NCBI GenBank assembly: GCA_001600415.1
Contig: BCJX01000005.1
Coordinates: 1,854,008 to 1,918,007 of the forward strand
Direction: 5' to 3'
DNA length: 64,000 nt
Origin: Pascua guehoae
Taxonomy: Eukaryota > Basidiomycota > Tremellomycetes > Trichosporonales > Trichosporonaceae
Part shown: one piece after another, positions 3,350-25,277 of the stretch
How positions within the stretch are numbered: position 1 is the stretch's first letter
Layout of the letters: every line of letters starts with the position of its first letter
Notes under the pieces: model-generated
Databases searched by the model: none
Told to the model about the DNA's origin: nothing
Seen by the model: only the letters and a program-made list of their open reading frames with translations
Made by a program: the position numbers and the translations under genes

Positions 3350-3439
3350 TGTCCTATGGCTCAGTAGGTAGAGCATTCGACTGTTAAAAGTAACCACTTC
3401 AACATCGAAAGGTCCACAGTTCAAGCCTGTGTGGGACAG
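3350..3439 (+). tRNA. tRNA-Asn(GTT), copy 3, 17-nt intron
   Basis: Mature part identical to copies 1 and 2. Only the intron differs (17 nt, different sequence in the middle), showing that the exon part is constrained while the intron drifts. Confidence 0.92.
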
Positions 3440-6497: not shown

Positions 6498-7195
6498 CGA
6501 GGTCGTAGTGTAGTTCACACCGTGTGCATATTGTATTTGTTGTATCGTCATCGAGGGTACGACTTGGCATTATATATCCCTTCATGTTACTATTTTTCAC
6601 TGTCATTGACACAGCCTGTGAAAGAGGCTCGTCGCATCGACAGGCTGCGTACGTCACGCGCCCAGGCGGCCAGGCGGCTGCTTCACATCAAGCACCCGGC
6701 CCCTGGAGGTGCGATGTGTGCAATATTTTCGATAAAGCTCGTGTGTGCACAGACTGATGTGTAGATTCCAATGTGCAGTATACCCGGGACAGCAAGGGAT
6801 GAAAGACAGGACCTCCAGCAGGTCCAGGATGGGGCACGCCTCTCGTGAGTGGCGAGCTGGGTCAGGCACCACTCTGTCGGCCATTTTGTTTCGAGCAGTT
6901 CCCCCTATTCCGACTGCTCGCGAGTGGATTTGATGGGCGGGAGACACGACCTCGAACCCAGTGTTTATAGGCGGTAGTTGAGGGGTTAGGACATGTGTGC
7001 ACCTGAATACGCTCCACTGAAAACAAAGCTGGGTGCATTCTTGCACTGTCAGAACGAGTGGCAAAAAGGTACGTGTTTGGGTGCCCACCTTTGTGCCACA
7101 CATCAGCTCCACACCTCATTTCCACCCGCTCTGACTTGTAACAAGCAGCACCGACAGTGGCGCTTGTCCATAAACCTCATCAACCTCCCAAAAAG
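6498..7195. other. Gene-free stretch
   Basis: Short frames only, and no splice chain I can defend. Confidence 0.35.
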
Positions 7196-7296
7196 AGTGA
7201 GTTCCCAGGATCGAACTGGGGACCCTCAGATATGGAAAACATGGGATGGAATCCCGTATTTGCAATCTGATGCAACTACCACTGTGCTAAACCCAC
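7196..7296 (-). tRNA. tRNA-Cys(GCA) with a 28-nt intron
   Basis: On the complement: acceptor GTGGGTT/AACTCAC, anticodon stem TCAGA/TCTGA, loop TTGCAA..A giving anticodon GCA, T arm CCCAG-TTCGATC-CTGGG, intron 7232-7259. CTTTT follows. Confidence 0.9.
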
Positions 7297-7676
7297 TACT
7301 GTGAATACGCCCTGGACAGCGCCTGCCCCGCGGCACCGACATCATTCTTGGCATTTGGATTGGTATTCAGAGATTGGCATTCAGACAGTCCTTAGCGGCC
7401 TGAGGAACTCCCCGACTGTATTCTGACCCTGGGCAAGGTGTTTCGATACATGCTAAAGATGGTCACGCAAGCCCACTCAGCCTTTGAGGCTACCGGCAGG
7501 GCCGTTCGAAGACGAAGTCACCAACCAGGACCGGACGACTAATTGTTCCAACTGGTTGAAGAGATTCTCTCCAAGGCCACTGTCTGTCCAAGCTGCTGTC
7601 CGTTTAAACGCACTATCGAGCAGAGCACCGATAGTGCTCGAAACTACCCCCCAACCCTTGCTGCCCTCCAGCAACG
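7297..7676. other. Gene-free spacer
   Basis: Nothing recognisable between the tRNA-Cys and tRNA-Gly genes. Confidence 0.35.
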
Positions 7677-7904
7677 ACATTGTTGGTGAAACGGTATCAT
7701 GCGTCGTTGCCATCGGAAGCTTCCTCGTCAACATCAGACGAGGCGTCATCGCTACCATCGATTGGTGGTGAGATAATTGCTCCCGCTCCCCAAATCTAAA
7801 TACTCCCCCCTTATAATTACCTGTTTATGGCCGCCATGTGTTCGCCTGACGGCCAACCCATGTCGTCAATAGACGCGGCAGGGGTTCGACTCCCTTACAA
7901 TGTA
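7677..7904 (+). tRNA. tRNA-Gly(GCC) with an apparent 157-nt intron, or a split pseudogene
   Basis: The 5' half (7677-7712) has ACATTGT, the D arm and the TTGCCA anticodon loop (GCC at 7709-7711). The 3' half (about 7871-7904) has AGACG, T arm AGGGG-TTCGACT-CCCTT and ACAATGT. The acceptor stem pairs perfectly over seven bases across the gap. The anticodon stem CGTCG/AGACG has one G-A mismatch at its loop end. The D arm matches the tRNA-Gly(CCC) gene at 47.5 kb closely. The interruption is far longer than in the other tRNA genes here, so this is either a long-intron gene or an insertion-broken pseudogene. A T-run terminator lies about ten bases downstream. Confidence 0.6.
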
Positions 7905-8238
7905 CTCAGGCTCTCCTTTTGCCGGCAGCAAGGTCCGGCAAGGGATTGAGCGGTCTTTGTGGAAACAGGCAGCTTCCACCAGGTGTCCCAAACGTTCTGG
8001 CACGCGCTAGTTCGCAATCTCTAACCTTGGCGACAACCCGCAAAGTCTACGGGGTTGAGCGGATGCAGAATCACCGGGGAAACGGCTGTGAGAACAACCA
8101 CTCATCTTGTCTCATGGCCCCCCTCGACACGTCACCCCCACGCAACGATCTCAAGTGCAGACAAACACTCCGTGTCATGATGAATGATGAATGTACGGAT
8201 GCCAGGACCCGCCTGGGCAAGTGGCAATACAAGTTGCG

Positions 8239-9302
8239 CTACAAGAGCGAGCAGTGCACGTTCCGCAACGTGCAGCCCGGGGGTCCTAGTGAGCTCGAAG
8301 CGTGAGAGCCAGTGGGCGTATCGACCAGCTCCATGGACTGAAATTAGCAAGAGAGCTGTCTGAAGACCTGTTTTTGGGGGAACCCACCTGGCCACGCGAC
8401 TGGCGGTGCTTGTAGAACTCGCCGGCATTCACCAGGGTGGGACAATAGGTCGCCTGGTCGGTGTACCCTGGCGACTCTTCGCGCTCGAGATATTTGCAAG
8501 AGGTATTTGGTCTTGCTCTCTCGGTGCGAGATTCTTGGACACGGATCCAGTCCTCAAAGCGGCAGCCGGGGTTGAGGACCGAGAGCTTGGTCACTCCGGG
8601 CAGCCGGGAGTTGGATGAAGGCCGTGAAGACGCGGGCAACGAAGGACGACTCTCCGTGGGTGTGATTGTCAATTGTGACAGGCGGCCGCGGGGAGCGGTC
8701 GAGCCACGCCATGCGCGCACAGAGGCCTGCACGTTAGCGCCACGGCAGAAGGTCGTTCCAGGCACGAGCAGCTTTGGTGTTGAGGAAGGGCCGTGGACGT
8801 ACGTCAGTCAGATCCGAGTATGGAAGGCTGTCCTCGAGGTTGTCGCCGACACAACTTAGCTTGCCCAGTCTACCGTCAGCAGGTGCGCGATGAATGGAAC
8901 CACAGGTCTCCAACATTGCTATTCTATAATGGCTGCAGAGATAAACGTCATGTCATGGACGTACAAGGAGGTAGCCCAATCGGATGCACTCTAAGCAGTC
9001 AGCATCCACACCCGCCAACACTACAGTGGTACTACTCACGTCAAAGACCCAGGGGGGGTGCTGGGGTGGCTTCGGTGGCGATAGAGGAGCCGCACACATG
9101 GACAAGGGCCAGTCGACAACGTACGAGTCGCCATCGAGGTCAAAGTCGGCAGGAGTGAGGTGAATAAAGCTTTGCGTATCTTCTTCAGCACAACTTGGAA
9201 CGTCGGCGTTCTGAGGTGTGAGCTGAGCTTATCCAAATGGGTACAATATTGTGGAAAGGCACTGACCATCTGAAACGGGTGGTAGGCCATCCTTTCGGGC
9301 AT
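8239..9302 (-). CDS. Hypothetical protein, 6 exons, 266 residues
   Basis: Complement of 9302-9267, 9210-9040, 8990-8965, 8932-8803, 8726-8388 and 8337-8239. All phases agree and the frame closes at a TAG, giving 266 residues. Donors are GTCAGT, GTGAGT, GTACGT, GTACGT and GTGGGT; several acceptors follow CTGAC, CTAAC or CTAAT branch sites. Segments such as LTPADFDLDGDSYVVDWPLS and CRFEDWIRVQESRTER look like genuine conserved protein. No catalytic motif, signal peptide or membrane segment is seen, and I do not recognise the family. Intron 3 is only 32 nt, so the exon 3-4 junction is the weakest point; without it the frame would stop at 8919. In-frame codons continue upstream of the chosen ATG, so a longer N-terminus is possible. 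Confidence 0.55.
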
Positions 9303-10327
9303 GTCGCGTGGTGGGACAACACTGGGCGTGGTAGTGGCAACAACAATGGCGATGGTGGAACCGACGCGTGTGAATGTATGTATGTGTGGTGGACAGAAAA
9401 GAGAATGGTTGGCAGTTAATGAGTGTTCGAGCTGGACAATAAAGGCTGTGCCGACGCCGCCGGTTGAAGGGGAGGGGTGTTTGGGTCCTCTGACCATCCT
9501 TGCGTCTTCGTGTCCTTTGGTTCTTCTATTGTTGGGTGGGGCTCGCACCGGCACCCGAAACGTTAGGGTCACGTCACGCGGCCGCAGCGACATGCTGCCC
9601 CCTCGTGTTGCCGCGGCGAGCCCTAGATGTGAGACGCAACGAACAGCGAAAGGTGGTGCAGGTTCCAGTAAACGAGGCCAGAGGGGTTGGCCATGTTCCG
9701 ACGTCAGCGGTGACACTCCCAGACTGGGGGCCGTTTCATGTTTCACGCGCCACTGGTGCAATCCAAAGGACGGGGGAGATCTGATTCCAGGACAGAGGCA
9801 ACGCAGGCACGGCTCGGAAGCGAGCCACTACAATTATGACGCCAAGCGACGGCGAGGTATTGAAAAGAATCTTGAGTGTGAAACGGGGTGACTCCCTTGT
9901 GGTTCTGACTGCAACAGTGCTGTCATTGTTGGCTTTGACGTACTCCTACCCTTCTGCACCCTAGGGGGAACGCTACACCATGTGACACACCTCTAGTTTC
10001 CCATTCACCATTATGCGTGCCTTTTTGTCAGATTCAGAGGACCGCACCCAGCTGCTCAAACAGAGGTGCGTGTCGTGTGCACCTTTCAGTGTCTGGGCAC
10101 CTGAAATGTGCGACCTTGGTTGTGATTCCCACAACGCGTGTTTGTGGTGTCCTGGACATGCCTCAGGGTAGTTTTCTGTGGGTCTCCATTGTTACAGCAC
10201 ACGCCAAGCAAGTGCACCTCGTCACTGAGGCAAGTGGCTGTTTTTTTCCGTCTGGTCATGGGACCTCGGAAGCAATGGCTTGGGGGAATTGTGGTATTAT
10301 CATTGGTTTGCAGTCTTCAGGAAAATT

Positions 10328-10388
10328 CATGGCGTGCATGGCGTGCATGGCGTGCATGGCGTGCATGGCGTGCATGGCGTGCATGGCG
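10328..10388. repeat. 9-bp tandem repeat, about 6.8 copies
   Basis: CATGGCGTG repeated head to tail six times plus a partial copy. The period of nine keeps any reading frame open. It lies outside a supported gene. Confidence 0.9.
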
Positions 10389-11509
10389 GTGGCGTCGCAA
10401 TGTCAGGCAGGGAATTCACCACGGACGCGACCGAGCACCACGCAAGAACAACCTATGAATGCAGCTGGCGTGTTACGGCTAACAAGCATGCACCGGCAAA
10501 GGCCTTCAATACGTGCTCTATCCGTCAAGCATGGTCGTCGAGCGCACGACGCGTCTGCTCACTGGCAAACAGCATGGCTCCAATCTGTAAGTTTTATACC
10601 TCAGCACAGAAGACATTCCTTAACAAACGACTCGTACCCCAGGTAAGTGGGACGTAACCATGGCATTCGGGGTAGGTTTCCGAGACCTGCCATCGGCCAT
10701 TCCTGCACTGTCCAACTTGTGACACTCACGCGAAGCAAATAGTCAGACCCATCAATGGCCGAGGAAGAGGAATGGTTTGTGAGTTAGCAACAGCTGACAA
10801 TCACCTCGTTGGTGGGGTGACTATTTGGAGAACAGTGCATATAGTGACGCGCACCAGCCCTATTCTTCCCACGCCGGGCCGAGGCGCAGACTATAGCAGA
10901 CAAGCGATAAGGACAACGAGGTTGCTAGCCACCGCCTCGAACCCCTATCACATACCTCGCTACGCAGCGACTTGACATGCTCCGTGCTACATGCCCAGGA
11001 GTCCATCAAGAAATGAGCGGCCCATTCCGCCCACTTGGTAGGAGCCAGCGTCGTACATGTGATGTGTGAGATCACACGGTGGGGCCAATGCGGGGCATCC
11101 AGAGTGGAGAGTGCGGGGATGCGGGGCATACGCTGGGACGATGGAGTGCATGGCGGGTTCAGGTTCTACCACAGATCTGGTCCTGACAGGCTTGACTCGG
11201 ACCCTCTGCGGCGTGCGAGTGCCACCGCCTCCGAGGCGCCACCTGGGCTTCACTCCCTCGGCACATCGGCACCCCCGCGGTACCAGTGCACAACGGCCTG
11301 CTCACTTGTGTGACCCCTCAGGGCCCGTGGGTGTGGGTCGTGTCGAAGGGGGCGATGGTGGCGTTGCTGGTCATGTCAGGGACATATGGGGCACGGGGGG
11401 AGATGGCAATGGGATGCGCTCTGCTGGTATCGGAGATGGCGATGAACCGAGGGCGGTATTGTCCGCGCACAAGCCTACATGCCACTCGATCCCGTAGGCT
11501 TACGGGGTA

Positions 11510-11518
11510 CATATACTC
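11510..11518 (+). promoter_or_regulatory. TATA-like element
   Basis: CATATACTC about 60 bases before the ATG at 11573. Confidence 0.4.
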
Positions 11519-11572
11519 GAGAGCGATGGAATGGGTTTTCCACATCTCGTCTCCTCCCTATCATCAATCGAC

Positions 11573-12488
11573 ATGAGTAAATCTGACCCAGTGTACGGAA
11601 CACCACACCCCCGAGCACCCCAAGGCGTGGCCTCGAGTCCGGTGCGGGGACTCGGACTCGGGCTCGGACTGGGGCCCGAAGGCGACCTCGGGTTCCAAAG
11701 AGGATCCCCAAGAGCCCAGACTGGGCAATCCCCGACCATCGAGGGTGGTCAATCACTTGGCCTCCACCCTGCGTGGGAGACGCCGCCGCGACGGCGACCG
11801 GCGTACACATTTTCGAGTAGTCCCAGCGGCATCCCCAACGGGTACCCCGGGGAGCACAACGACGTTAATGAAGTGGGTAGTACCCGTGTTCCCTTGCCAA
11901 TATTAATTCCAGCCCTCATCACCGTCGCCTGTATTCACCAACCTCCCATCGCGGTTAAACTTTACGTCGCGTCTACCTGCTACGCCACGAACTCCTCAAC
12001 GTGGTGGGCACACAGTCCGCCCCCAGATGCCACCTACACCTCGTACCGAACGCACGGCGCCAGCCATCTCTCCCGACCAGGGATCACACCTGCGTCTCCG
12101 TCTGAGGATGGAGGGCTTTCCAGCTCTCGCCACGGGCTACGAACACTACGACCCAAGGGCACACGGGCCAGTGCTCCCCACACCGGGCCTGTCTACGAGC
12201 GAAGAGGACGCCGACGAAGACGAGGACGATGAAGACATCTACGCCGCTCTTCCGCCATCCCCCACCCTTCGTGCGGCCGACCCCACCATGTCCCCAAGCG
12301 ACCACGACGCACTGCCAGTGGCTGACCTCTTCCACGCCCACAACGGCCTGAATCACCTCACATCCCCTCGCCGCCCCCTGCCCAACGGTTTCCACATCCC
12401 GGGCCTCCCAAACGGCGACGGCCCAAAATCTCGCCATCCGTCGTCGCTCCCGTCGTCAGAGGCCCACACCCTCCCGCTCCGCTGCTAG
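11573..12488 (+). CDS. Hypothetical protein with acidic patch, 2 exons, 258 residues
   Basis: Exons 11573-11876 and 12016-12488 join over a 139-nt intron (GTAGTA..CACACAG) in matching phase to give 258 residues. The N-terminal third has a Gly-Leu repeat (GLGLGLGLG) and Ser/Pro-rich sequence. The second exon carries the run EEDADEDEDDED followed by IYAALPPSPTLRAADPTMSP. The frame switch at the intron is required: the acidic patch is only readable in the second exon's frame. No enzyme, DNA-binding or secretion signal is seen. The layout (disordered N-terminus, acidic patch, TP sites) resembles a nuclear or scaffold protein, which is inference. Confidence 0.55.
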
Positions 12489-14057
12489 GGCGACGCGGTT
12501 CATTGCCGGGGCAGTGGCAGCGGGGGGCTCCACTTCTTTTCCCCACAGCGCCTCCCGCCACATTGGTTTGGCCGGATCTTTGCGGCGCTGGTGGACGGGC
12601 GTGGATAGCCCACATGCCACGCCACAAGCTACATCCCGCCATTGTTCTTCGAGCCGCCCTGTGTGAGGCGCAAAGCCCCCGAGCCGCCGAGTCGCCAACC
12701 TGCCCCAGAAAATACCCCAGGACCCCAAGTTGAACATTTGGGCGCGCCTCTTGATTGAAAGACGCCGCCACTCACCACAAAGGATACCGATGCCTCGTCC
12801 CGAGGTATACGTCCGCGACCCCCATTCGCCAGCCAGCCATTATCGTCGTTGGGCATCTCGTCGCCACTGCCGGATCGCCTCCCCGCCACACTCAGGTCCA
12901 TGCCATCCTCCCCGCCACAATGGCCGCAGCGGCTGGCTCACCCCCATCGCCGCTGTCGGCCACCGGCCCCCATGATCGCCGCCACGCACTACACTCAGGT
13001 CTGCGCCGAGCGTGCGCCACACTCAGGTCCGCGTTGGCGCTCTGCCACACACCCTCGCCATTGCTCCCGGTCCAGTCCACACACCGCGTGCGACCTTTAT
13101 CGCCCACAATGCAACCAAAGAGCAAACTGAAACCAGCCGAGCGGGCCGCGCGACGGTCCGGCCGAGGTGGGCTGCCGACGAATCGAAGACGGTATGCCAA
13201 AGTTGGACAACGTGAGGCACAACCGTGGACAAAACGGTCGGTCCGTGGCGCACGACAAGCCCGAGTAACCGCTTTTCCACATGGGTCTCAGTCCGTAGTA
13301 AAAGGCGGGAACGAGGGCGTGTCTTGGCATCCCTGCCTTTGACAGACCATTGTCCAAGGCTGCCACGGCCTTGGTCTTCGCTCTCGATGGCGATGCGGCC
13401 GTGCATTCCGGAGCTTCCCTTGCGTTGCGCTCCTGGGTGGCTTCAGGCGATAATGGCAGCAACCGTGTGGCTGGCAATCTAGACCTGCCTCCCTATACCA
13501 CAGAAGACAAGACGTAGTTGTATGCAAAGTTGTACAAGATCAGTGGAATGCAATCGGCTGAGAAAGGATATGTTGCTAGTCGTTTTACGTAACACACCGT
13601 GGCGTCTCGTGTGGCGGTTTGGCGTTGTGGCACTTTGGCGGCGTCCACTCGTACCCGCTCCGACACACGACGCCACAAAGGGTGGATTTTACTCCTGATC
13701 AACAGCAACCCTCGCTTGGAACCGTCGCTTCCCCGGAACAGTACTGTGAGGGGATAGTGTAAGGCGGAAATGGTGGCTTATCAGCACCAAGCACAGGTCG
13801 TGGCACCTGAAAGTGGCAGTAGAGCTGAGCGACTTCCACGTGCGTCCTCAACGCGGGGCATCAGAGGAGGACTGCTTCCCACTTCGTTGCTGTTGCAATG
13901 CTGGGGGGAATACCTCGTTGCCGGTACCCACAGATGTGATACCGTCATCCCTCGTCACATAGCGATACCACCAGGGCCGCGCTTGTGCACTCGGAATTAG
14001 GGTCTCGGAGCACTTTGAAAGACGCAATATTGCGCGCCAACGATTTCGCAAAAGGGA
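12489..14057. other. 1.6-kb stretch without a supported gene
   Basis: GC-rich, with many overlapping frames but no defensible exon chain, RNA gene or clear repeat. Confidence 0.35.
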
Positions 14058-14154
14058 TTCTCCGCCAGGGAGTCGAACCCTGCTCTATCGCGATCTTTCT
14101 ATTGAAAGGCTCTCTCTTGAGAGGCGATTATACTAACCGATATACTAGCGAAGA
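14058..14154 (-). tRNA. tRNA-Glu(CTC), copy 1, 25-nt intron
   Basis: On the complement: acceptor TCTTCGC/GCGGAGA, anticodon stem ATCGC/GCGAT, loop CTCTCA..C giving anticodon CTC, T arm CAGGG-TTCGACT-CCCTG, intron 14093-14117, discriminator A. It is almost identical to the copy at 47838. Confidence 0.9.
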
Positions 14155-15876
14155 TATGATAGTTGGGATTGCCTCCACGATGGCGGTCGCGCCCTTCATG
14201 GCCAGTTTTGCAAAAGAGGCCACCCATGGACACTGCTGGGACAGGAATAGTCTGTTCATCGTGATCATGGCTCCTAGTTTGATGTCACAGTGTCACGTGT
14301 TCTACTTTGCACGCTCATCCCGCCATGCTTGCGGGGGAGCGTGTTGTCCTTGAGGCAGCAACACTCTCTGCAGACGCATCGTGTTCACCGTGTCGTGTCA
14401 ACTATTGCGTCACGGGACCTCGCGAATCAACCCCCTCAACGTCATATCCACGTAGCCCGTAGTTGATCTGTTTTGGCCCTATTTCTGAAACAGATGCTGC
14501 GGTGCATGCATGCATATGAGGAGGGGGTTGGTGGTAAGCGTGGCTGTTCCTGAGAACAGGCTTCCGCGCTTGTGCAGCGAGGTCATGTGTGTTTCGGGAC
14601 GGCACGTCCAAGTATGGGCTGCTGGGAGTGGGAGAATACGGTAGTGGGAGTAGTGACAGGCCCACGCCGGGCCAGCAGCGCGAATGGGGCCAAGGTGGTA
14701 GCCCGTGCCCCTGCTTCCGCGCGGCACTTGGCGACATGTGCTGGGACAACAAGGCTAGAAGCGCGGCTGCGTGCTCTCGACGGCTGCGTGCGCTCGACCA
14801 CATGGGCGTGGAAAACACTGTGGACGCCATGAGCGCGGGGTGGGTCAAGAACGCCTCATCTCCCAAGGCGCCGGGGACGACACGCCCGCGGTGATTCTGC
14901 ATGTGCGATGGCTTGGCCGTGGGGCGGGTGACGAACGAGGAAGCACGCAACGTGCAGTGTGCAGCGTGCAGCGTGCCGCCAGTGCCAAGGCAGTCACTGC
15001 TGCAAATGCGTAGGCTACATACAGGGGCACGGTGGGGCTACCGACGCCCGTGACCAACCTCATGGAGGGGACTGGGTACGAGTCACGCTCGGTGTGCATG
15101 TAGTGTACATGGTCATCGCCGCAGAGTTGTCGTCTCGATCTGTCCCATGTTGCCGGGAAACAAAATAATGCGCACTCGTGCTTTGTATGTGGGTGGTGAG
15201 GAGACCTGAATTGTTCTGCTCGTAGCGCACAGTGACAACCGACGCCGGCGACATGTCTGTACAGACTGCTGCTACCTACCTAGGTGGTGTCCATGAGTTA
15301 GTTTTGCCCGACGCCTTTTTCTCTTCTGCCCAACTAACTGGGTTGGTTCATCCAACCACTATGGCTGTCTCGTTCGTGTTGCCACACCGGGTTGGTTAGT
15401 TACTACTTACTGCATGCCGCCCGTGTCGAGCGTTGGCCTGTCAAGCAATCTGCACACGTCTTTCGCCATCACGACCAACGCCTCAGAGGCAAGGTTGTTT
15501 ACAAACTGCATGTCTCGTCTAATCTACTATGATTGTGGTATTGTATGTGCGCTGGGAGGGGACTGTGACTCGGCAAAGCACATCGAGGTGTTGCCCCGAG
15601 GGCTACTCCGTGCGCAAACGCAGAGCCTCCTTGTTGGCTGGTCGGGTCGACTAGGCCCGTCAGCGTATGGCACTCAACTCTGAAACGCTCGGCTGGCGAA
15701 TGACAAGTTGCTGGTGACGACTCCGGGCAGTGGAAGCCATTTCAAACGCCTCGCTCGATCAGAGGCCAGCAGAGCCATTACAAGCGCCGGTGCTAAAAAC
15801 GCTGCGGGACTCACCTTCACAGCAGTGTTTGGGGCGCCATGGTTGAGGAGTTTGTGAGTTGCCTGCAACAAAAAGC
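14155..15876. other. 1.7-kb stretch; hairpin repeats begin near its end
   Basis: No supported gene. From about 15656 onward degenerate members of the hairpin family of 16-23 kb appear (CGTCAGC/GCTGGCG around TGAAACGCTC, and two AGCCATT..AAACGC cores at 15733-15803). Confidence 0.4.
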
Positions 15877-15972
15877 TGGAGTGACCCGGGATCGAACCAG
15901 GGACCGTACGAATGAAAAGTAGAAACCAGTTCAAACTTCAGTCGTACGCTCTCCCAACTGAGCTATCCCTCC
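15877..15972 (-). tRNA. tRNA-Phe(GAA) with a 23-nt intron
   Basis: On the complement: acceptor GGAGGGA/TCACTCC with one G-A mismatch at pair 5-68, D arm GCTC/GAGC with AGTTGGGA loop, anticodon stem TACGA/TCGTA, loop CTGAAG..T giving anticodon GAA, discriminator A. The mismatch makes it worth checking for function. Confidence 0.85.
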
Positions 15973-16305
15973 GAGCTGCTTAACCTACTTGACACCACGT
16001 GCCGAGGTGCGAGGCTCAGGACGCAGGAGCGATGGGCTGTGAAGAAGGCGAGAAGCGTTCCAGTGGCAGGAAAGAGGGAGGGAACTAGTCTTTGGCTGGA
16101 ATAACACAACGATGTGAAAGCGGGGCTCATGGCCGTCCTGTCGATGTTATTATCGTTTCGCGAACTTACTCACGCGAACCGGTTCGCAGACCAACCTTGA
16201 GCGGGCACGAGCGTGGGCCATTGCGATCTGTGGTTCCGTCAACATCAGTCAGCAAACGCTGTTTGTGCGCGTCCACTGAAGTGGACCAAACGCTTTGTGC
16301 TGGTA

Positions 16306-16542
16306 GGGCCCCCAGCGTCCGGACAGGTCGCTAGTGACTGCTGGCCAGCAGAGCCATTACCCCAACGGTGACGCTGCGGAACCAGGGCCCCCAGCGTCCG
16401 GACAGGTCGCTAGTGACTGCTGGCCAGCAGAGCCATTACCCCAACGGTGACGCTGCGGAACCAGGGCCCCCAGCGTCCGGACAGGTCGCTAGTGACTGCT
16501 NGCCAGCAGAGCCATTACCCCAACGGTGACGCTGCGGAACCT
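16306..16542. repeat. Three tandem copies of a 79-bp unit inside a putative intron
   Basis: Units start at 16306, 16385 and 16464 and are identical except for an N at 16501 in copy 3. Each holds CAGCGTC and GACGCTG as inverted arms and the AGCCATTAC..AACG core of the hairpin family. On the complement a donor (AAAAG, then GTAGGT) sits at 16544 and an AG acceptor at 16300, so the array would lie in one 245-nt intron. Confidence 0.8.
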
Positions 16543-16879
16543 ACCTTTTCGGGAGGGTGCGTTAACGGCTCGACTCGGTTGGAAACTAGTCGGGCCTCCT
16601 ACAGTGTCGTTGCACCGAAGCCCGTTGACTGTGAGGTCAGGACGGCCATCTCGCAAGTATTGACGGTAACAAGCCTGAGACGGACTTGTTTCAAACTCAT
16701 CCAGAATAGGAAGACATTCGGACCAGAAGGAAAGTTTCTGTGGATGTCAGCGCAGTGCAAGCTGAACCAACGCTGGACATCCATCGAACCATGCGGTTGA
16801 CGTACTCTAGTCCGGAATCATCTAGTCCGGAATCAGCAAAGTCTGGCGGAAGCGCAAGACGGATAACCGACATGGCACT

Positions 16880-16945
16880 CTGTCCGGTCAGCGCTGCGCT
16901 TGTAGCCATTAAAAAACGCCGCGGCGCAGCGCCGGCCGGACAGAC
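16880..16945 (-). mobile_element. Introner-like element
   Basis: Complement starts GTCTGTCCGG and ends GCGCTGACCGGACAG. The arms pair over 20 positions with one G-U and one A-C, around the core AGCCATTAAAAAACGC (plus strand). Confidence 0.65.
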
Positions 16946-17030
16946 CTCTTTGAATAAATAAGCACGAGAGACACGGGCGCTGAGCAGAGCGATGTGCTCT
17001 TGCGGCCGGCAGGGCTGAGCGGCTATTACG

Positions 17031-17111
17031 CTGTTTCCGTCAGATATTGCCCTGTATCCGTAGCTCTTCTGGCGCTACGCCGAGTACGCTGCGTGCAAAG
17101 CGCTGACGAAC
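17031..17111 (-). mobile_element. Introner-like element
   Basis: Complement starts GTTCGTCAGCGC after CACAAAG and ends ATCTGACGGAAACAG. Arms TTCGTCAG and CTGACGGAA pair. Confidence 0.5.
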
Positions 17112-17160
17112 CTTTGTGGAGTTGAATAGAAGCCAGGGACGGGGAAGATGAGTCGGTGGA

Positions 17161-17283
17161 CTGTGGGATCAGCGCGCTACGAGCCAATAAGCGTGATAGG
17201 CCCTATCAACTATTCCAAACGTTACGCAAGGCTGCACACTCTCTTAATGGCAGCGCGCTGAGCGCGTGGCTGTCAGGCCGCAC
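17161..17283 (-). mobile_element. Introner-like element
   Basis: Complement starts GTGCGGCC after GAAAG and ends GCGCTGATCCCACAG. Internal arms CAGCGCGCT/AGCGCGCTG. It precedes the exon 17160-17112. Confidence 0.45.
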
Positions 17284-17294
17284 CTTTCAAAGAC

Positions 17295-17349
17295 CTGTGA
17301 AGTATCAGTGGTTTGAACGCTATGCCACATACCCACTGACGAAACCCAC
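17295..17349 (-). mobile_element. Introner-like element
   Basis: Complement starts GTGGGTTTCG and ends CACTGATACTTCACAG. Arms CAGTGG/CCACTG flank TTTGAACGCT. Only an 11-base exon (17294-17284) separates it from the next element. Confidence 0.4.
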
Positions 17350-18099
17350 CATTTGACTAATGAGCTCGGAGGACCCTTGGACGAACGAAGGTGGGCCGCG
17401 CGGACCGGGAAGGTGGGGCCATTGCGACCTGTGGTTCCGTCAGCGTCAGTCAGCAAACGGTGTTTGAGACTACCATCCGGCGCGTCCACTGAAGTGCAGT
17501 AACAAAGAGCCATTTTCCAAACGCTGTGTGCTGGTAGAGCCCCCAGCACCTTGCAGAACAGGTACTAGTGGTTGAAAAAGGAAACTGTTTGCCAGTGTAG
17601 TTGAGCCTCGGCATCCTACGGTGTCAGTGCCCAAGGTTGTGATCTAGTGGTTTCTTAACTCTGCGGGTGTCAGCGAAGTGCAAGCAAGCCTCCAAGCTCC
17701 AATGCGTTGAGCTGCGCGGTCGACCTACTCTGTCTACAAATGAGCAGTAACACAGAGGCGCAAGGCGGTGACCGAGGTGGCAAACAACTCTGGGGTCCGG
17801 TCAAGCTGCGCTTGTAGCCGCGGGGCTGGCGCCACGCTGAGTACGGTCTGTGCCCAGCGCTGACGATATCCCGGGAAGCCAGGGACGGGGAAGGGAAGAT
17901 GAAAGTCCGTATCTTTGGGTCATTGTAAGGCCACCGTGGATAGAAGTAAGACAGCACACGTCTCGGTCAGCACATCTCCCAGCGCCGGGAGGGGCAATTC
18001 AAAACTCCTGGAAACCAGTGCGCTGGCGGGCTCACTATGGTAATGCAATCTTGAGCTCGTCGGCGCAGGGATTCGACCAGATGGAGGCTGGGGAATCAC

Positions 18100-18242
18100 C
18101 TGATGGGCCGTCAGCGTACGCGTTCCACAGAGCCTTGTCAAACGCTGTGCCATCTTGTCATTGAAACAGGGCCCTACATATTGTTCCAATGGCAAGATAG
18201 GAGCCATTAACCCTCGGAGACGAGCACACTGACGGAACCCAC
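18100..18242 (-). mobile_element. Introner-like element with two cores
   Basis: Complement starts GTGGGTTCCGTCAG and ends GCTGACGGCCCATCAG. The end arms CCGTCAG/CTGACGG pair. The GT side resembles that of the element at 17295-17349, suggesting duplication. Confidence 0.5.
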
Positions 18243-18317
18243 CATTTCGACTAATTTGACCTCCGACCCTGGGACGAGGGGGTGTTGGGGGGGGGGGGGG
18301 AGTGAGGTAGCAACAAT

Positions 18318-18388
18318 CTGGGGTCCGGTCAGCGCTGCGCGTGTAGCCATTTCAAAAAAAGCGCCGCGGCGGCGCCGACCGGACAGAC
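18318..18388 (-). mobile_element. Introner-like element
   Basis: Complement starts GTCTGTCCGGTC after AAGAAG and ends GCGCTGACCGGACCCCAG. Core AGCCATTTCAAAAAAAGCGC. Same arms as the element at 16880. Confidence 0.6.
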
Positions 18389-19007
18389 CTTCTTTCTTGC
18401 CTTCAGGTACTGCTTGCTTGTTGGGGGTATGACGAACAAGCACGAAAGAGGGCGGACGATGGCAGAATCTGTGGGCTGCTCAGCGCTGAACTTGTAGCCA
18501 TTGCAAACGCTGCAAGTGCAGGGGTGGTGGGACGTGTCAGACAACACAAAGCAGCTGTAAAGCCGCGGGTGCAACGATCAGTCAGATGGCACATGGGGGC
18601 CACTTAGCCGCGGTGGAGCACTGAGAGGAACCCACCTTGGATCTCGTGGCTCTGCTTGCGTCAGTTTTCTTCGGTTAATGATGGCTACACGGAACGCACC
18701 TTCGCTTGTTCGCCGACAGCTGCAGCAACAGGTAACCTCGGTGGAGAAGGAGTGGTTAACGTTGATGGCGCGGACTAGTGGGGTGCTGAACAGACGTGAC
18801 GTGGTATCGTCAGCGCTGAAACTGCCATTCCAAACGCCTGTCGCGGCGCCGGTGGACGTGTGCTGGGTCTGTACACACGCCCCTTTCAAGTTGCTTGAGG
18901 CGTTGGAAGCAAAACGGCCGGTCAACCCTAGACGATTCGCAGAGACGAGTTACTGATGAGGCGAATATTTGTGTAAAGTTGCTCGACGTCGGGATTCCGA
19001 ACAAGCC

Positions 19008-19072
19008 CTGAGCCGGTCAACGCCACCGCTACTGACCATTCCAAACGCCCTTGGCAGCGGCGTTGACCGGAC
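19008..19072 (-). mobile_element. Introner-like element
   Basis: Complement starts GTCCGGTCAACGCC after CAAAG and ends GCGTTGACCGGCTCAG. Twelve perfect pairs CCGGTCAACGCC/GGCGTTGACCGG. The A-T pair, where most copies have G-C, is a paired change. Confidence 0.65.
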
Positions 19073-19505
19073 CTTTGATGGTTTACCAAGTTCCTAGAGT
19101 GACTCGCGGGGGAAGGTGGGGGGAGCGCGACTGGAAGATAGGAGAAGGTCTGAGGACAAAGGGAGGGTCAGACTCGGATGCGAGCGGTCAGCGACGTTCT
19201 CAAGCAGCCAGAGCGAGACACACCTGTTCCAACTTGATGCACGAGGACGGTGGGGTCGGTTAGATCCGACGAGCTCAGGCAGCCTGTGGTGTCAGTGCTG
19301 GTGCTGCCAAAGCTGCGCCGCGCTGAGTGGGTCTGATAGACCCACCAATGTATCGTTGCTGGACTCCACGAGCCGGGGGGAAATGTCGTCGTGCCGGCGG
19401 GAGGAACATTCGCGTACGTGATCTGTAGGCCTGTGGGGAGGTATGGATTTGACGGTCTGCGGTGCTGGACCCGTTGGACGTGGTGGCATGTGGCGGCCTG
19501 TGTAT

Positions 19506-19574
19506 CTGGGCGGACGTCAGCGCGCATTCCTGAGCCATCCCAAACGCTGTGAGTCATGCGCGCTGACGCCGTGT
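19506..19574 (-). mobile_element. Introner-like element with lost donor
   Basis: Twin of the element at 19642-19710 (13 perfect arm pairs, CGTCAGCGCGCAT), but the complement starts AC instead of GT or GC after AAAAG. It should therefore splice poorly, if at all. Confidence 0.6.
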
Positions 19575-20072
19575 CTTTTGAGAGTGTGAGAGTGTGCTTG
19601 ATGAAGACGCTTCGAATGAGGAGTGGGAGGCCGCGGTGTATCTGGGCGGACGTCAGCGCGCATTCCTGAGCCATTCCAAACGCTGTGAGTCATGCGCGCT
19701 GACGCCGTGCCTTTTGTGTTGAGACGTGGAGAGTGTGCTTGAACGTGCGGGAGATGAGTTGGGCGCGACGGCTGTGCAACAGTCGGGCGAGGCTGAATTC
19801 GAGCATGAGGTCTGGTGTCGTCAGCCAACGTGCACTTGCGGCTTGGTGCTGTGAGATGCTTTACCTTTGACGCCGCTGGAGCCAGAGTCTGTGAGTCGGT
19901 GGATGATGTAAGTGCAAGCAAGTGGCACAGCTCGGCTCGTCAGTATACCGCGTGTAAACAGGGGACACTCACGCGCCATTCGCGTCGGCGCCGAGGAGGT
20001 GCATGATGTCGACGGCAGACCAAGCGGGATGAGAGGATCGATGGGGGGCTGGTTGTGGTGGCAGGAGCCCAT
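19575..20072 (-). CDS. 5' exons of an introner-rich hypothetical gene
   Basis: Complement of 20072-19973, 19888-19865, 19811-19711 and 19641-19575. Phases agree through the third junction. The start is the first ATG after a TATA box (MGSCHHNQPPIDPLIPLG). Exon 3 reads LMLEFSLARLLHSRRAQLISR and exon 4 repeats part of it in diverged form (LIRSVFIKHTLTLSK against the exon 3 end FKHTLHVSTQK), so an exon-intron unit was duplicated in tandem. The third intron has a GC donor and the following one has lost its donor; after exon 4 I cannot tell whether the gene is functional. No family is recognised. Confidence 0.45.
19642..19710 (-). mobile_element. Introner-like element with GC donor
   Basis: Complement starts GCACGGCGTCAGCGC after AAAAG and ends GCGCTGACGTCCGCCCAG, a GC-AG intron by sequence. 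Arms pair over 13 bases. Core AGCCATTCCAAACGCT. Confidence 0.65.
19812..19864 (-). mobile_element. Intron of the same style, weak arms
   Basis: Complement starts GTAAAGC after GTCAAAG and ends GGCTGACGACACCAG. The end layout matches the family, but the inverted arms are poor, so it may be an ordinary intron or an old copy. Confidence 0.4.
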
Positions 20073-20298
20073 GTGGTGGCGTTCGGGCCAAAAGCGATAA
20101 CGACAACGACACGGGCTGGAGAGAAGCTGTCAGTGGGGTCGGGGTGGAGAGCAAGTGTATGACGGATAGGAGGGAGGTGGTACCCGAGTAATCGGCCTGG
20201 AGGGAAGGAGGCAAGGGAAAGTCGGTGGACGGTGAAGGAGTGGGGGGGCAGTGGAAGAGAGAAGTGGATGAAGATACGAAACGGCTAGCACCGCGCTG

Positions 20299-20306
20299 GT
20301 TTATAA
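20299..20306 (-). promoter_or_regulatory. TATA box
   Basis: The complement contains GTTATAAACC, about 230 bases before the ATG at 20072, with a CT-rich leader between. Confidence 0.45.
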
Positions 20307-22303
20307 CCTCCAAGAACCCGCTGCGAGCACCTCCCGGCTACAACATGCACCCGCCTGGTTCCGACTCGGACATGGTGTTTTCGAATTCGGACGGGTGTTG
20401 GAGTCCGAATGGGAGATATCATGGGAAGATGGTGTGTGGAGAAGCAACTTGGAGATGGGAAGAGGGTGTGTGTGGAGAAGCAAGTGCGAGGTGGCGTGCA
20501 CGGCGTGGTTGTTCCCATGACAACGTGCGGAGAGGCAACGTTGACGGCAGCGCGACGACGGTGAGAATTCTGCAGAGTGGTGAGGCGGGGGCGTGTTGTG
20601 GGACGAGGGCGAGGGGCGCGAGTGGTGGTGCGCGGTGCACGCGGTGGGGGGCGTGTGGCGTGGCTGAGGGCACCCATGTCGCATGTCGAACACTCCACTC
20701 GCGCTCGTGGCATGCGCAGGAGAAGTTTTGGAGAGCTCGACAGCTCGACAGCTCACCAACTGAGCGAGCAGGCTGCACTTGCTTGCTCGACATCACAAAA
20801 GGTACGAGGCTGCTGCACGTAGCAAACCCTTTCAGCAAGCGGTCTGCAAGAAGACTGTCGTTCCAGAGCGGTCGATGGAGATCGAGGGAGATCATCCCCC
20901 TCCACCACACACCGCCACACGGCCGGAACTCGCACCCCGACCAGCGCTGGCCCCTTTCCATGCTTCCCACGCTGGGCAGCGGGGTTCAAAGGAGGAGGGG
21001 AGGTGTGTCGACTCCCACGATTGGGGCAAACGAGGCAGAGGCGGGTTCGGTAACTGCACTTGCCGTGAGGGCAGACGGGGTGGTGCGTGACCTCTGCAGA
21101 TGTACACGGCGGATTGGGCATGTTCGTGGTGATCGTGCGATCGAGGTGATTGTAGTGATCGTGGTGGGAAAGGGCAAGAACTGTGGTGGCCAGATTCTTG
21201 CACACTGTCCCCAAGGGAAGGGAAGAGCACACCACAGGTGCTTGGAGATAGGGGAGATTGCTGCTTCTGCCCCTCGAGTCCATTACTTGGCAACACAATG
21301 GTGCCACTGCTGCCTCGGTCCTGTGCTCCGAGGATTGTCATGTTACGATGCCCATCTTCTCGCCTTCCGTTCTACAAGGGTCGGAGCAAGAATAGAGACG
21401 CTGGGCCGATCCGGATGCCTTGTCAGATGGCTTATGCGTACATGCCATCCTTGGCGTTTGGGGACGAGAGAGACTGACGGCCCGCGGGTACGCGGGATGG
21501 TGCAGCCAGCTCCGAGTTGCCACTGCCAAGATGTGATCAAACCTTGGCGCTGCATTCTGCACCCCGATGACATCAATATCCGAACCCCGACAACCTTGAA
21601 CTGACGGACTTGGGAGACTTTGTTGGTCATCCTGTCTCAGCCTGGGTAGGTGGCAAGCTAAAGTGAACGTGCCGCGTGCTGCAAGAGCCGAGCAAAAGAA
21701 TGACATGGAGATGAAAGATATGGAGCTGTACCCATGCATACGCGCGCGCTGCCGCCGCGTGGTGTGTGGCGCGGGGCGGCCAGGCGCAGGGCTGTGTCTA
21801 CTACAAAAGATTTTTTTTTTGTTTGTTTTCTATGAACCCATGATTGTGATTATTGTGGGGGACTGTTGGCAAACGTCCCCCGGGTACTGGCAGCTAAATG
21901 CCAGCTCAAAGCTACGAAGCTACAAACGCACAGTGGTGATGGTGGGGGACTGTTGAAAACGTCCCCCGGTACTGGCAAGGAAACGCCAGCTAAAGAAAGC
22001 TACAAATGCGAAGTGTGGAGGATGAGCAACGGTAAAATTGATCTCGGCACTGGGAGGTGGTTGCTGGACAGTTTCCGCCAGAACCGAGCATGGGAACACA
22101 TGACTCCTGCCACGAGTGCCTTTTCGGTGGAGGGAAGGGGATGGATGGATGGTTTACTCACGTTTACTCACCACGTTGGAGGATGAGAATACATTGCCCA
22201 TGTCAAAATTGCGTTCCTTGATAGAGGAAAATTGCGTTTCTTGATGGAGGGAGGGGGAGGGGTGAACAGGTGCTCGGAAAGCGGGCTAGGCCCAAAGGAA
22301 AAT
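20307..22303. other. 2-kb stretch without a resolved gene
   Basis: The plus strand is open for 459 codons (20225-21604), but the composition looks like GC-driven chance. On the complement a protein-like stretch around 21.0-21.15 kb contains CPHGKCSYRTRLCLVC, a possible zinc-binding cluster, and an ATG at 21739 starts a hydrophobic N-terminus (MHGYSSISFISMSFFCSAL). I could not connect them. The right third holds a second hairpin family. Confidence 0.35.
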
Positions 22304-22378
22304 CTATGAGAACGAAATGGAGGTAATGGTGCGAAAGAATTGGATGAAGGGGCTATTAACAAACGCCCCAGGTACTGG
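21857..22378. repeat. Second hairpin family, three copies
   Basis: Copies at 21857-21881, 21944-21967 and 22349-22369. Arms are GGGGGAC/GTCCCCC, GGGGGAC/GTCCCCC and GGGGC/GCCCC around loops ending AAAC, each followed by (C)GGTACTGG or AGGTACTGG. On the complement all three contain CCAGTAC followed by a C/G-rich arm; in the third this encodes VPGAFVNSP of the neighbouring gene. Confidence 0.6.
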
Positions 22379-23288
22379 AAGATACCAGCCCATGCGCGAA
22401 GCATGCTGAGGGAAGGAGGTCGGGGGTGGTTGTGTCGCTGGTGGTGGTGGCGGGTATCGTTGGTACTGGTGGGGGGTAGTGTTGGTGGCGGTCGTGGTGG
22501 CGGACGTGGTGGCGGAAGCGGTGTTGGTGGCGTTGGTGATGGAGGTGTCGATGGGAGCGGTTGCGATGTACTCGGGCGCACTGTGCCTGGCCGACCCCGA
22601 CCTTGTCGCACGAGGCCCCTACCTGTTCCGTCAGAATACGAAGCACTGGACCGTATAGCCATTGCAAACGCTCTCGATCTGAGGCAGGCGTTCACTCGGC
22701 GCACCTCCCACAGCGTTTGCGCTGTGCACGTAACCACGTATTCTGACGGATGGGCCACCTTTTGTTTGGCACACTTGGGTTGAGACGCATTGTGAGGAAC
22801 GTGGTGTTGTGCAATGATCGAATGGTGGATGGCGGTAGGCGTGGGAGGGGGTTGCCTGTCTGTCAGAAAGCGTGACCCCGTGACGATACCGTCGGGATGG
22901 AGGCCAATGTCAAGGTTGAAGCCGCGGGTGGACCTGAGTACCGTCAGCACGCAAATGAGCCATTGCAAACGCTATGATTTGCATGCTGACGGACCGACCT
23001 TTGAGGAGCAACCGAGAGCGGGAAGAACCATGTTGGCCGGGTTGACGGGAGGCTGGAGCTGTCCGTCAGCGCAGATCGAGCTATTGAAAACGCTATGGAA
23101 GTGCGCTGACGGACGAACCTTTTCAGAAGAAACATTGACCGCGGCCATGATGAGAACCGCGCGTTGGAGGGAGGCTGCGGTGCGTCCAACTGTCCGTCAG
23201 CGCAGACCGAGCCATTGAAAACGCTATGGATGTGCGCTGACGGACAGACCTTTTCAGAAGAAACATTGACCGCCGACACGAGAACCAT
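22304..23288 (-). CDS. Hypothetical Ser/Thr/Pro-rich protein, 5 exons split by introner-like introns
   Basis: Complement of 23288-23250, 23189-23119, 23058-22999, 22933-22759 and 22618-22304, 660 bases, 219 residues, closing at TAG. Every junction keeps phase. The first three introns are 60, 60 and 65 nt and are close relatives of each other with inverted-repeat ends; the fourth is 140 nt with the same arms and a TAG acceptor. The start ATG has an A at -3 (GAACCATGG). Notable segments are RGFNLDIGLHPDGIVTGSRF in exon 4 and a Thr/Ala/Asn run (TNATNTASATTSATTTATNT) followed by a poly-Pro block in exon 5. No domain is recognised. Two more elements lie upstream in the presumed 5' leader (TATA box near 24.1 kb). 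An upstream reading frame starting at 23685 would encode about 50 residues if those two are spliced. Confidence 0.55.
22619..22758 (-). mobile_element. Introner-like element, long form
   Basis: Fourth intron of the 22.3-kb gene. Complement starts GTGGCCCATCC after AAAAG and ends TTCTGACGGAACAGGTAG. Arms TCCGTCAGAATACG/CGTATTCTGACGGA are 14 perfect pairs that differ in sequence from other copies. A nested GCAAACGCT/AGCGTTTGC pair lies inside. Confidence 0.7.
22934..22998 (-). mobile_element. Introner-like element
   Basis: Third intron of the gene. Complement GTCGGTCCGTCAG..GTGCTGACGGTACTCAG. Arms CCGTCAGCACGCAAAT/ATTTGCATGCTGACGG with one mismatch. Confidence 0.7.
23059..23118 (-). mobile_element. 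Introner-like element
   Basis: Second intron of the gene. Complement GTTCGTCCGTCAG..GCGCTGACGGACAG. Thirteen perfect arm pairs. Confidence 0.7.
23190..23249 (-). mobile_element. Introner-like element
   Basis: First coding intron. Complement GTCTGTCCGTCAG..GCGCTGACGGACAG. Fourteen perfect pairs. Core GAGCCATTGAAAACGCT on the plus strand. Confidence 0.75.
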
Positions 23289-23322
23289 GGTTCAACTCGG
23301 GAGTGAGTCTGTGGCGCTTGTC

Positions 23323-23382
23323 CTGTCCGTCAGCGCAGACCGAGCCATGGAAAACGCTATGGATGTGCGCTGACGGACAGAC
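23323..23382 (-). mobile_element. Introner-like element in the presumed 5' leader
   Basis: Nearly identical to 23190-23249, with 15 perfect pairs (CTGTCCGTCAGCGCA). Upstream of the chosen start codon. Confidence 0.7.
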
Positions 23383-23444
23383 CTTTTCAAACGAGGACGG
23401 ACATGGTGGGCGGTATCGCTGGGGTCGTGGCGGTATGCAAAGTC

Positions 23445-23623
23445 CTAGTCCGTCAGCGCCGCATTGCCCTTTCTTTTCTGCATTGCCAGCAAGACGGCCA
23501 AGTGGGCACACATACATTGTCGCGGGGCCAAAAGGCAGCTTGTATGGCACATTGGCCTTGAGCTTGGCGGGGCCCATGGCACTGCCACGTTCCCTTAAAA
23601 ACGCATTGCGGGCGCTGACGGAC
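23445..23623 (-). mobile_element. Introner-like element, long form, in the presumed 5' leader
   Basis: Complement starts GTCCGTCAGCGCC and ends GGCGCTGACGGACTAG, 179 nt. Same arms as the short copies but with about 140 nt between them, open in one frame as MGPAKLKANVPYKLPFGPATM-like sequence. It may be a fuller ancestral form of the element or a copy that captured other sequence. Confidence 0.55.
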
Positions 23624-24100
23624 ATTGCCTGTAGAGGTTGATGGGAGATGTGGGGATGTCGTGCCGTTTGTGAGCTGGAGTTGCATGGAGGCTGGGCGGG
23701 GCGCGATGGGAAAACCGGAGGATAGACTGGATGGGCCAGTGAAGCTGGGGGGTTGGCTTGTGGTGCTGTGAGGTGATGTGGTGGCGTTGGTGGCTGATGG
23801 CGAGGGAGTTGGGACGGATGGTGGATGGTGGTGGTTGCGAGGGAGGAAGATGGTGGTGTGGTGTGGTGATTCAGAGGGATGTGGCGGCAGTGGGCTGGGG
23901 GATAACGATGGTGGTGGCAATAGTGCGAGGAGAGTAGAGTGTACGAGAAAGAGAGAGAGAGTAAAGAAGGAAGACGTGGAGAACGGAGGGTGACGTGGAA
24001 GGGAAGAGGTGGGGGATGGTTGACAAGACAAGAGATCAAGAGGCAAAGGGAGCAAAGGAGGGATAAGGGGATGGTCGAGGAAGGTGGCCAGGACGGGAGC

Positions 24101-24108
24101 TTATATGC
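24101..24108 (-). promoter_or_regulatory. TATA box
   Basis: Complement GCATATAA, followed by a long CT-rich leader typical of fungal promoters. Probably serves the 22.3-23.3-kb gene. Confidence 0.45.
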
Positions 24109-25277
24109 ACAGCGCCCACGGCTGGGTGCCACTTTGGTGGGGCTGCACTTGTCGGGATGAGTCGCACCGCTATCTGCATGCTTTGTAATCATTTCGAATT
24201 CTCAGAGATGTTGGGGATACTTTGTGTGTACAGAAGTAGATGTGTGCTTCGCGCTGCATGCTGCATTCCAATGTGACGCTGAACAATGGGCGTAGGTTGC
24301 GTACGAGGTAGAGTGCTTGCTGGGGCTTGGTGATTTGGTCGTGTGTGGTGTGTGGCGGAAGTGATTGTGGCCCTTGTTTTGGCTCCGTGACATGACACCT
24401 TAGGCGCCTTGCAGGCATGCAGACTAGCGCAGACTGGTATCCATCCCCATGCATCCTCATGTCCAACGGGCCGCATCCGCCCTCGCGCCCTAGCCCCATG
24501 CCGCACACATGGGGTGCACACGACTGCGAGATTTGCATCAACAGCTCCTGCTCTTCGGGTCGGTATTTATGCCCCCGCTCGCAGCTTGGGGGCCAGAAGC
24601 CGACCACGGTACACACATGCCAAGTCCAGAGACGTTTTGGGGCAGAGAGCACAGAGTGATCGTGCTGCCATGGTGTCTGGTAGATGATCCATGCACGCTG
24701 TGCACGGCAAGTACTGTACATTGGGATATGGGCGTATTGCCATTTGCTTGGCCAAAGTGCTCACAGCAGGATTATCTTTGCCACAACCGTGTTGGACACA
24801 AGGCTGTCAAATATCCGTCTGTGCACAAAGGAGGTTCCGAGCGTGAACATCACATGATACATACAGGCTCCCTGCTTCTACAGCTCTACAGTCTACCATG
24901 CGTCGTGGGGTCTTGAGAAATGTCTTGTTCGTGTGGCGTGAGTGGTACGGTCCGTGCCGTTGACGTGGGAGGGAGGGGCGGGGCACAGCCTGGGGGCCTG
25001 GGGGGCATGTGGAGGGTGGGGACGAGGTCGCTTTGGCAGGCGATCCAAGCGCAACCGATGGTGTGGTGGCGTCCAGGTGGCAGGTGGGGGTATGTTCGTT
25101 TGGTGATTGCTGAGATCCGCCCCTGGGGAGAGTGAGTGTGCCGGAAACAACTAAGAGGCTGATGGCAAGTCGTCAATGGCCAGTAGCCACCATGACCTGT
25201 TGAGGACCGCAACTTACCGAGGGTGGACCAGCTCACTGTGGCGCCGAGGGGCGTATCGGAGGGCGTCGTGGACACGA
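24109..25277. other. 1.2-kb stretch without a supported gene
   Basis: Short overlapping frames only; no repeat or RNA gene seen. Confidence 0.4.

Follow-up and report, generated by a model that had tools for sequence, protein, structure and literature searches.

We examined a 64,000-nucleotide (nt) stretch of the genome of Pascua guehoae (contig BCJX01000005.1; hereafter the window), in which a family of about 20 related hairpin elements, 55–317 nt long and all lying on the minus strand, forms an array that occupies positions 15651..23623 of that strand together with the segments between the elements, where a gene finder detects almost no coding signal. The count of 20 is our own, whereas that of our covariance model (R1, described below) is 14; the remaining six (E1, E13, E16, E17, E19 and E21) lie beyond the reach of the model and were assigned by eye on the strength of their borders, their outer stem and fragments of the conserved cap. 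A first-pass annotation of this DNA had described a family of hairpins of 53–179 nt in a single orientation. Both the family and its orientation are borne out, as core matches, descriptor matches and inverted repeats are all concentrated in the array, the stems of the hairpins covary and the hairpins are on the minus strand throughout. The extent given for the family holds for the array as a whole, except that no element lies between 19.7 and 22.6 kb, where three small hairpins, similar in their cap, are all that is found, and that element lengths reach 317 nt.

Members of the array

Read along the minus strand (a slash marks the upstream border of an element), the array begins with E1 (23445..23623, 179 nt, GTCCGT..GACTAG), which has a multibranched interior and by-eye borders. 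The model-matched E2 (23323..23382), E3 (23190..23249) and E4 (23059..23118) are each 60 nt long, the first two with AAAG/GTCTGT..GGACAG and the third with AAAG/GTTCGT..GGACAG, and are followed by two further model matches, E5 (22934..22998, 65 nt, AAAG/GTCGGT..TACTCAG), whose stem is unlike that of E2–E4 and still paired, and E6 (22623..22758, 136 nt, AAAG/GTGGCC..GGAACAG), which has a long outer stem with the cap hairpin inside it. Beyond the gap, E7 (19642..19710) and E8 (19506..19574), both of 69 nt and both matched by the model, start with AAAG/GCACGG (a GC donor) and AAAG/ACACGG (without GT) respectively, and end in CGCCCAG. E9 (19008..19072, 65 nt, AAAG/GTCCGG..GGCTCAG) differs in stem sequence and retains the stem length, and E10 (18786..18882, 97 nt, AAAG/GGGCGT) lacks GT and is degenerate; these two, E11 (18469..18635, 167 nt, CAAG/GTGGGT..CCCACAG) and E12 (18318..18388, 71 nt, GAAG/GTCTGT..GACCCCAG) are model matches, whereas E13 (18100..18242, 143 nt, AATG/GTGGGT..CCCATCAG), E16 (17429..17549, 121 nt, CAAG/GTGCTG..AACCACAG) and E17 (17295..17349, 55 nt, AATG/GTGGGT..CTTCACAG) were placed by eye. 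Two candidates at about 17.96–18.04 and 17.80–17.87 kb were too degenerate to be retained; the first of these is a model match of 10.6 bits with an expectation value (E) of 4.2. The array continues with E18 (17161..17283, 123 nt, AAAG/GTGCGG..TCCCACAG), a model match, E19 (17031..17111, 81 nt, AAAG/GTTCGT..GGAAACAG), placed by eye with its stem retained and its cap unrecognizable, E20 (16880..16945, 66 nt, AGAG/GTCTGT..CCGGACAG), a model match, and E21 (16228..16544, 317 nt, AAAG/GTAGGT..AACCACAG), placed by eye, and it ends with the model-matched E22 (15651..15814, 164 nt, GAAG/GTGAGT..GGCCTAG). Inside E21, at 16305–16541, a 79-nt unit is present three times at 99–100% identity with one N in the sequence, possibly a recent expansion that is sensitive to assembly.

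The hairpins share a core, AGCGTTTNNAATGGCT in the minus-strand reading, which has 17 matches with up to three mismatches in the window against 3.7 expected (standard deviation 1.7; maximum of 100 shuffles, 8), 14 of them on the minus strand at 15.7–23.4 kb. In most elements the conserved cap, AGC-GUUUNNAAYR-GCU, sits on an inner stem, and a descriptor of cap plus stem found 15 minus-strand matches, 14 of which fall at 15.7–23.3 kb and one elsewhere, with two on the plus strand of the whole window. Judged by eye, the cap may resemble the T-loop motif of transfer RNA (tRNA), UUNNAAY closed by a U-R pair. Perfect inverted repeats of at least 10 bp with a span of at most 200 nt number 19 in the 8.1-kb array (13 non-redundant, some bridging neighbouring copies), compared with 13 in the remaining 55.9 kb of the window and 23 in a 93.8-kb sample of the genome, counted with masked N left out.

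Nine simple hairpins (E2–E5, E7–E9, E12 and E20) have long stems of differing sequence in which pairing is nevertheless kept, as in E9 compared with E2. When 14 chosen hairpins were aligned, two-sided changes were seen in 8 of 19 pairs (17 such cells against 5.7 in shuffles) and 90.9% of cells were paired against 82.4% in shuffles; sliding the partner by one to three columns lowered pairing to 24–43%. Model R1 was built from these 14 hairpins and recovers them by construction, the nine simple ones at 49–64 bits, and its plus-strand matches are the same hairpins read backwards at 21–28 bits; it added no member in the window, where the best match elsewhere reached 11.4 bits (E 2.7). The mean folding energy of the 20 elements is −0.46 kcal/mol per nt, against −0.19 for 46 predicted ordinary introns (lowest −0.38), in line with the stable secondary structure or inverted repeats reported for fungal introner families. 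We also considered whether the U-rich cap pairs with the conserved exon end (A)AAG, an idea taken from the exon-binding sites of group II introns, and found no support for it: 13 cluster representatives scored 115, compared with a permutation value of 112.4 (P 0.32).

Splice-site-like borders

With borders set by eye and with GT/AG in mind, 17 of the 20 elements start with GT, 18 have G at +5 and 14 have T at +6, with +3 and +4 variable, while the 3′ end is CAG in 18 and TAG in two; a branch-point-like CTGAC lies near the 3′ end, in the right arm. The test was repeated on the nine model matches that span the outer stem, the limits of which are set by the stem. On the minus strand AGGTnnG lay upstream in 7/9, YAG downstream in 9/9 and both in 7/9, the misses being E7 and E8, compared with 0/9, 5/9 and 0/9 on the plus strand and with 1.6%, 31% and 0.5% of random 54-nt segments of the window. 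YAG is retained despite its varying distance from the stem. These results agree with the GT..AG borders and right-arm CTGAC site proposed in the first-pass annotation, at the level of candidate splice signals; its statement that most elements begin with GT directly after (A)AAAG has its exceptions in E7, E8 and E10, where GT is lacking. A further border test, made on 13 inverted repeats of the array, gave a donor in 4/13 and donor plus acceptor in 2/13, with the acceptor sought too far downstream and neighbour-joining repeats included; the same test gave 0/13 elsewhere in the window and, among 46 strands of the genome sample, a donor in one and donor plus acceptor in none.

To obtain ordinary introns as a reference, we ran a codon-based gene finder on 97 kb of genome and on 33.9–64 kb of the window, giving 152 introns, which are noisy predictions. 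The 46 with CTNAC 4–14 nt from the end were retained and the 106 without it dropped, which makes branch-point statistics of this set circular and leaves its donor statistics unaffected. These predicted introns are 43–107 nt long and 40/46 have G at +5. Preceding the donor, AAG is found in 16/20 array elements against 3/46 of the predicted introns. That the elements are intron-like, with a putative donor and branch-point-like site resembling those of introns predicted in this genome, is well supported at the level of sequence.

Copy history, dispersal and surroundings

The putative introns E2 and E3 are identical at 59/60 positions, whereas the putative exons after them (that is, before E3 and E4) match at 55/64 with 16 gap columns. 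These exons are homologous, as 0/1000 shuffles scored as high, likewise without the last 10 nt. For E7 and E8 the introns match at 67/69 and the exons before them at 48/60 with 14 gap columns, again a homologous pair (0/1000 shuffles as high; 1/1000 without the last 10 nt), and the exons after them match at 41/62 with 10 gap columns (7/1000 shuffles; 153/1000 without the first 10 nt). Introns E3 and E4 are identical at 55/60 positions and E4 and E5 at 50/58 with nine gap columns. Copies are spaced by 131 and 133 nt in E2–E4 and by 136 nt in E7/E8, none of these being a multiple of 3. As the adjoining exon is homologous in the E2/E3 and E7/E8 pairs, the alignments point to joint tandem duplication of intron and exon there, with the intron apparently changing less. 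This low intron divergence could reflect selection.

The first-pass annotation had regarded the family as one that spreads as units and the region as its hot spot. Searches of the 33.6-Mb genome do not support this: matches outside the array do not exceed those of controls, which were the reversed patterns, and BLAST finds no second copy, all pattern and BLAST counts being lower bounds. The pattern GTCAGCGC-N18-48-GCGCTGAC has at least five genome sites, each found on both strands and all in the array (control, 1 and 1); the core with at most one mismatch has at least 16, nine in the array and seven elsewhere (control 12); GCGTTTNNAATGGC has at least 14, seven of them in the array (control 8); and for the 5′ end AAAGGTNNGTCCGTCAGC, with two mismatches allowed, there are at least 25, four in the array and 21 outside (control 23). 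The 10-mer GCGCTGACGG alone shows no enrichment in the genome (at least 144 sites against 201 for the reversed control). BLAST of 15.6–20.0 kb against the genome gave at least 32 matches, namely itself and 31 to the stretch that holds a tRNA gene, and 20.0–24.2 kb matched only itself. Near-identical copies in several unrelated genes, as expected of introners, were not found by genome patterns and BLAST. Three of the 21 outside matches to AAAGGTNNGTCCGTCAGC were inspected as second copies (C14:868004, C2:1542741 and C2:2908019), including the sole exact match; they were rejected, having neither right arm nor cap and no model match to E 10. Outside the array the 16-nt core recurs without mismatch at a single place, C6:303164, where R1 scores 19 bits (E 0.16), there is no more than a short stem and no tRNA is called alongside; R1 found nothing below E 0.16 in 170 kb of other genome sequence (34 of 55 loci). 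There is likewise no sign of target-site duplication at the flanks of the array elements (mean shared word 2.45; permutations gave 2.57, and 208/300 of them were as high), which, together with the homology of the adjoining exons in E2/E3 and E7/E8, speaks further against mobile elements. BLAST and fixed patterns can miss diverged 60-nt hairpins, and therefore an old scattered family may exist.

The gene-finder score of the array strand is 8.7, compared with 5.5 for the opposite strand, 2.8–6.1 for 15 shuffles and 150–196 for three stretches of the window that bear genes and belonged to the training sequence of the gene finder; by this measure the exons resemble the non-coding exons of host genes for small nucleolar RNAs (snoRNAs). 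A TATA-like stretch at 20,299–20,306 and pyrimidine-rich tracts at about 20.2 and 23.9 kb are compatible with two putative transcription units. An Rfam search to E 1 over 15.5–24 kb returned one tRNA and no snoRNA (C/D or H/ACA) or other family, and a fast Rfam search of the window gave seven tRNAs, none inside the array.

The single tRNA gene lies between E21 and E22 (15877–15972, minus strand, Rfam tRNA at 48.3 bits), is listed neither by ARAGORN nor by the fast Rfam search, and has 97% matches at C5:1965324 and C5:1826870. The gap in the array holds three minus-strand copies of a two-hairpin module (22345–22400, 21944–22010 and 21850–21915), consisting of CTGG..CCAGTACC and then a G-run stem capped by GTTTNN(N)AAYA; an exact pattern matched two of the copies and nothing further in the genome. 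Little coding signal is found over 6500–24300, the top call at 6.5–15 kb being a 127-codon frame at 12108–12489 with a score of 25.8. A plus-strand cluster at 1928–3826 has five Rfam tRNA matches, of which ARAGORN calls two as tRNA-Asn and one as tRNA-Trp, and contains three near-identical copies spaced by 558 and about 494 nt. A 108-nt inverted repeat (14051–14158 and 47834–47941) is 94% complementary over a distance of 33.7 kb. The neighbouring adenylate-forming reductase (37,060–40,107) has a top match of 55% identity; its nearest named relative is from Kwoniella (46%), and lower in the match list come Cutaneotrichosporon (45%), Cryptococcus (42%) and species of mushroom-forming fungi, in keeping with the Tremellomycete-like genome suggested earlier.

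Interpretation of the array

We lean, with somewhat better than even confidence, towards a single-locus family of about 20 structured introns of spliceosomal type, carried by a non-coding, multi-exon transcription unit of the minus strand or by two such units, in which the recent copies arose by tandem duplication. This reading draws on the array and its strand, the covarying stems, the borders, the lack of a second locus in our searches, the homologous exon in two pairs and the near-nil coding signal; it would further entail transcription and splicing of the locus and selection on the intron RNA itself. The long stem would tie the region just 3′ of the 5′ splice site to the branch-point and 3′ splice-site region, and in most introns the inner stem would present the conserved cap. 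At least the recent copies would stem from tandem duplication of an intron with its adjoining exon rather than from transposition, the introns having diverged less than the exons. Selection might act because the hairpin aids splicing, or because the excised intron is itself the product, as in an inside-out gene. The latter idea in its full form, namely a non-coding gene at one locus whose roughly 20 excised introns constitute a capped-hairpin RNA family outside Rfam, with exons as mere spacers, we put forward only tentatively.

Several observations weigh against the structured-intron interpretation. The by-eye border counts come from copies that are not independent, and the seven border-positive model matches represent only about five lineages of related copies. 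When all 14 model matches are taken, both border signals are present in seven and five matches mark the inner hairpin only. GT is missing from its expected position in three of the 20 elements (E7, E8 and E10); donors are atypical in having C or T at +3 in 9/20, compared with 7/46 predicted introns; and in E2, E3, E12 and E20 the donor reaches into the stem, which could hinder splicing. As an indicator of strand, G-U against A-C pairs (12 against 8 in the 14 rows, 8 against 2 in the nine) does not settle the matter. The array-strand coding score, tiny as it is, exceeds 15/15 shuffles. The exons before E2 and E3 (37/61 with 13 gap columns; 407/1000 shuffles without the last 10 nt) are at shuffle level and those before E4 and E5 (39/56 with 19 gap columns; 98/1000 shuffles with the same trimming) barely above it, both pairs being too diverged for a decision, so that tandem duplication is demonstrated for no pairs other than E2/E3 and E7/E8; some copies may have arisen by insertion, and gene conversion could also account for the low divergence of the introns.

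An array of unspliced structured RNA or hairpins, serving for instance as a small-RNA precursor or protein-binding decoy, with GT/AG ends that are simply part of the duplicated unit, seems to us rather unlikely, even though covarying hairpins with a conserved cap, the AAG before 16/20 elements (3/46 in predicted introns), which ordinary splicing does not need, and the three elements without GT all suit it; the by-eye donors are splice-like, with GT in 17/20, G at +5 in 18/20 and variable +3 and +4, and YAG is kept at varying distances from the stem. An origin from mobile introner-like elements, with copies spreading as intron units and a hot spot at this locus, would account for the intron-like borders and inverted-repeat structure, which passages of PMC8469720 report for fungal introner-like elements and Hypoxylaceae introns, as well as the near-identity of E2 and E3 behind preceding exons that are not recognizably related. 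However, matches outside the locus stay within controls, BLAST finds no second copy, homology extends to the exons that follow E2/E3 and to those that precede E7/E8, and the flanks give no sign of target-site duplication; we consider this origin improbable.

Palindromic units in one orientation would also be expected of a DNA-level foldback array or one resembling miniature inverted-repeat transposable elements, an explanation that we regard as very improbable given that neither dispersal nor target-site duplication was found in our searches and that the stems covary and the cap is conserved. A fast-evolving protein-coding gene with repeated introns appears more improbable still: taking out E7 and E8 leaves the frames open (by reading, not by computation) and the coding score lies above every shuffle, but that score is 8.7 against 150–196 for gene-bearing stretches, and the copy spacings of 131, 133 and 136 nt are not multiples of 3.

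Among known systems, the putative introns share with the introner-like elements of Dothideomycetes, as described in parts of PMC4457414, the character of short introns of spliceosomal type, and differ in being found at one locus and, in two pairs, duplicated with an exon. According to passages of PMC8469720, earlier authors reported stable predicted structures or inverted repeats for fungal introner-like elements, and there are fungal introns with terminal inverted repeats of 45–55 nt and no flanking duplications. With these Hypoxylaceae symmetrical stwintrons and sister introns the array has in common terminal inverted repeats, the lack of short flanking duplications and an intron, genuine in the stwintrons and putative in the array, on one strand only; they occupy many gene positions and have a palindromic centre (PMC8469720), whereas the array was found at one locus and has an asymmetric conserved cap. 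In a first survey, 7 of 8 introner-containing groups were aquatic, the exception being pezizomycotina fungi, and the fungal introners had neither target-site duplications nor terminal inverted repeats, as stated in sections of PMC9860276, the main text of which does not contain the words basidiomyc or tremell. Portions of PMC2780460 describe five clusters of non-coding snoRNA host genes in Neurospora crassa and name gas5 and UHG; like these, the array would hold structured RNA in the introns of a host with little coding potential, and unlike them it contains no snoRNA or other Rfam family, except for the tRNA between elements, and its structure extends to the intron ends. As would be the case in the array, RNA structure brings the ends together in nonconventional and intermediate introns of the unrelated euglenids, and some borders there are canonical (PMC4770533); the euglenid base pairs join +4..+6 with −8..−6. 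Among the papers listed in our literature searches, none describes in its title or the opening lines of its abstract a single-locus array of hairpin introns, which is not proof that there is none.

If the elements are spliced, the locus would exemplify introns multiplying at one place, uncoupled from genome-wide mobility and with introns seemingly more conserved than their exons, and its roughly 20 natural variants would allow one to ask what a stem linking the two splice sites does to splicing. If, in addition, the excised hairpins are stable, the locus would be an intronic RNA gene of a new kind among basidiomycete yeasts.

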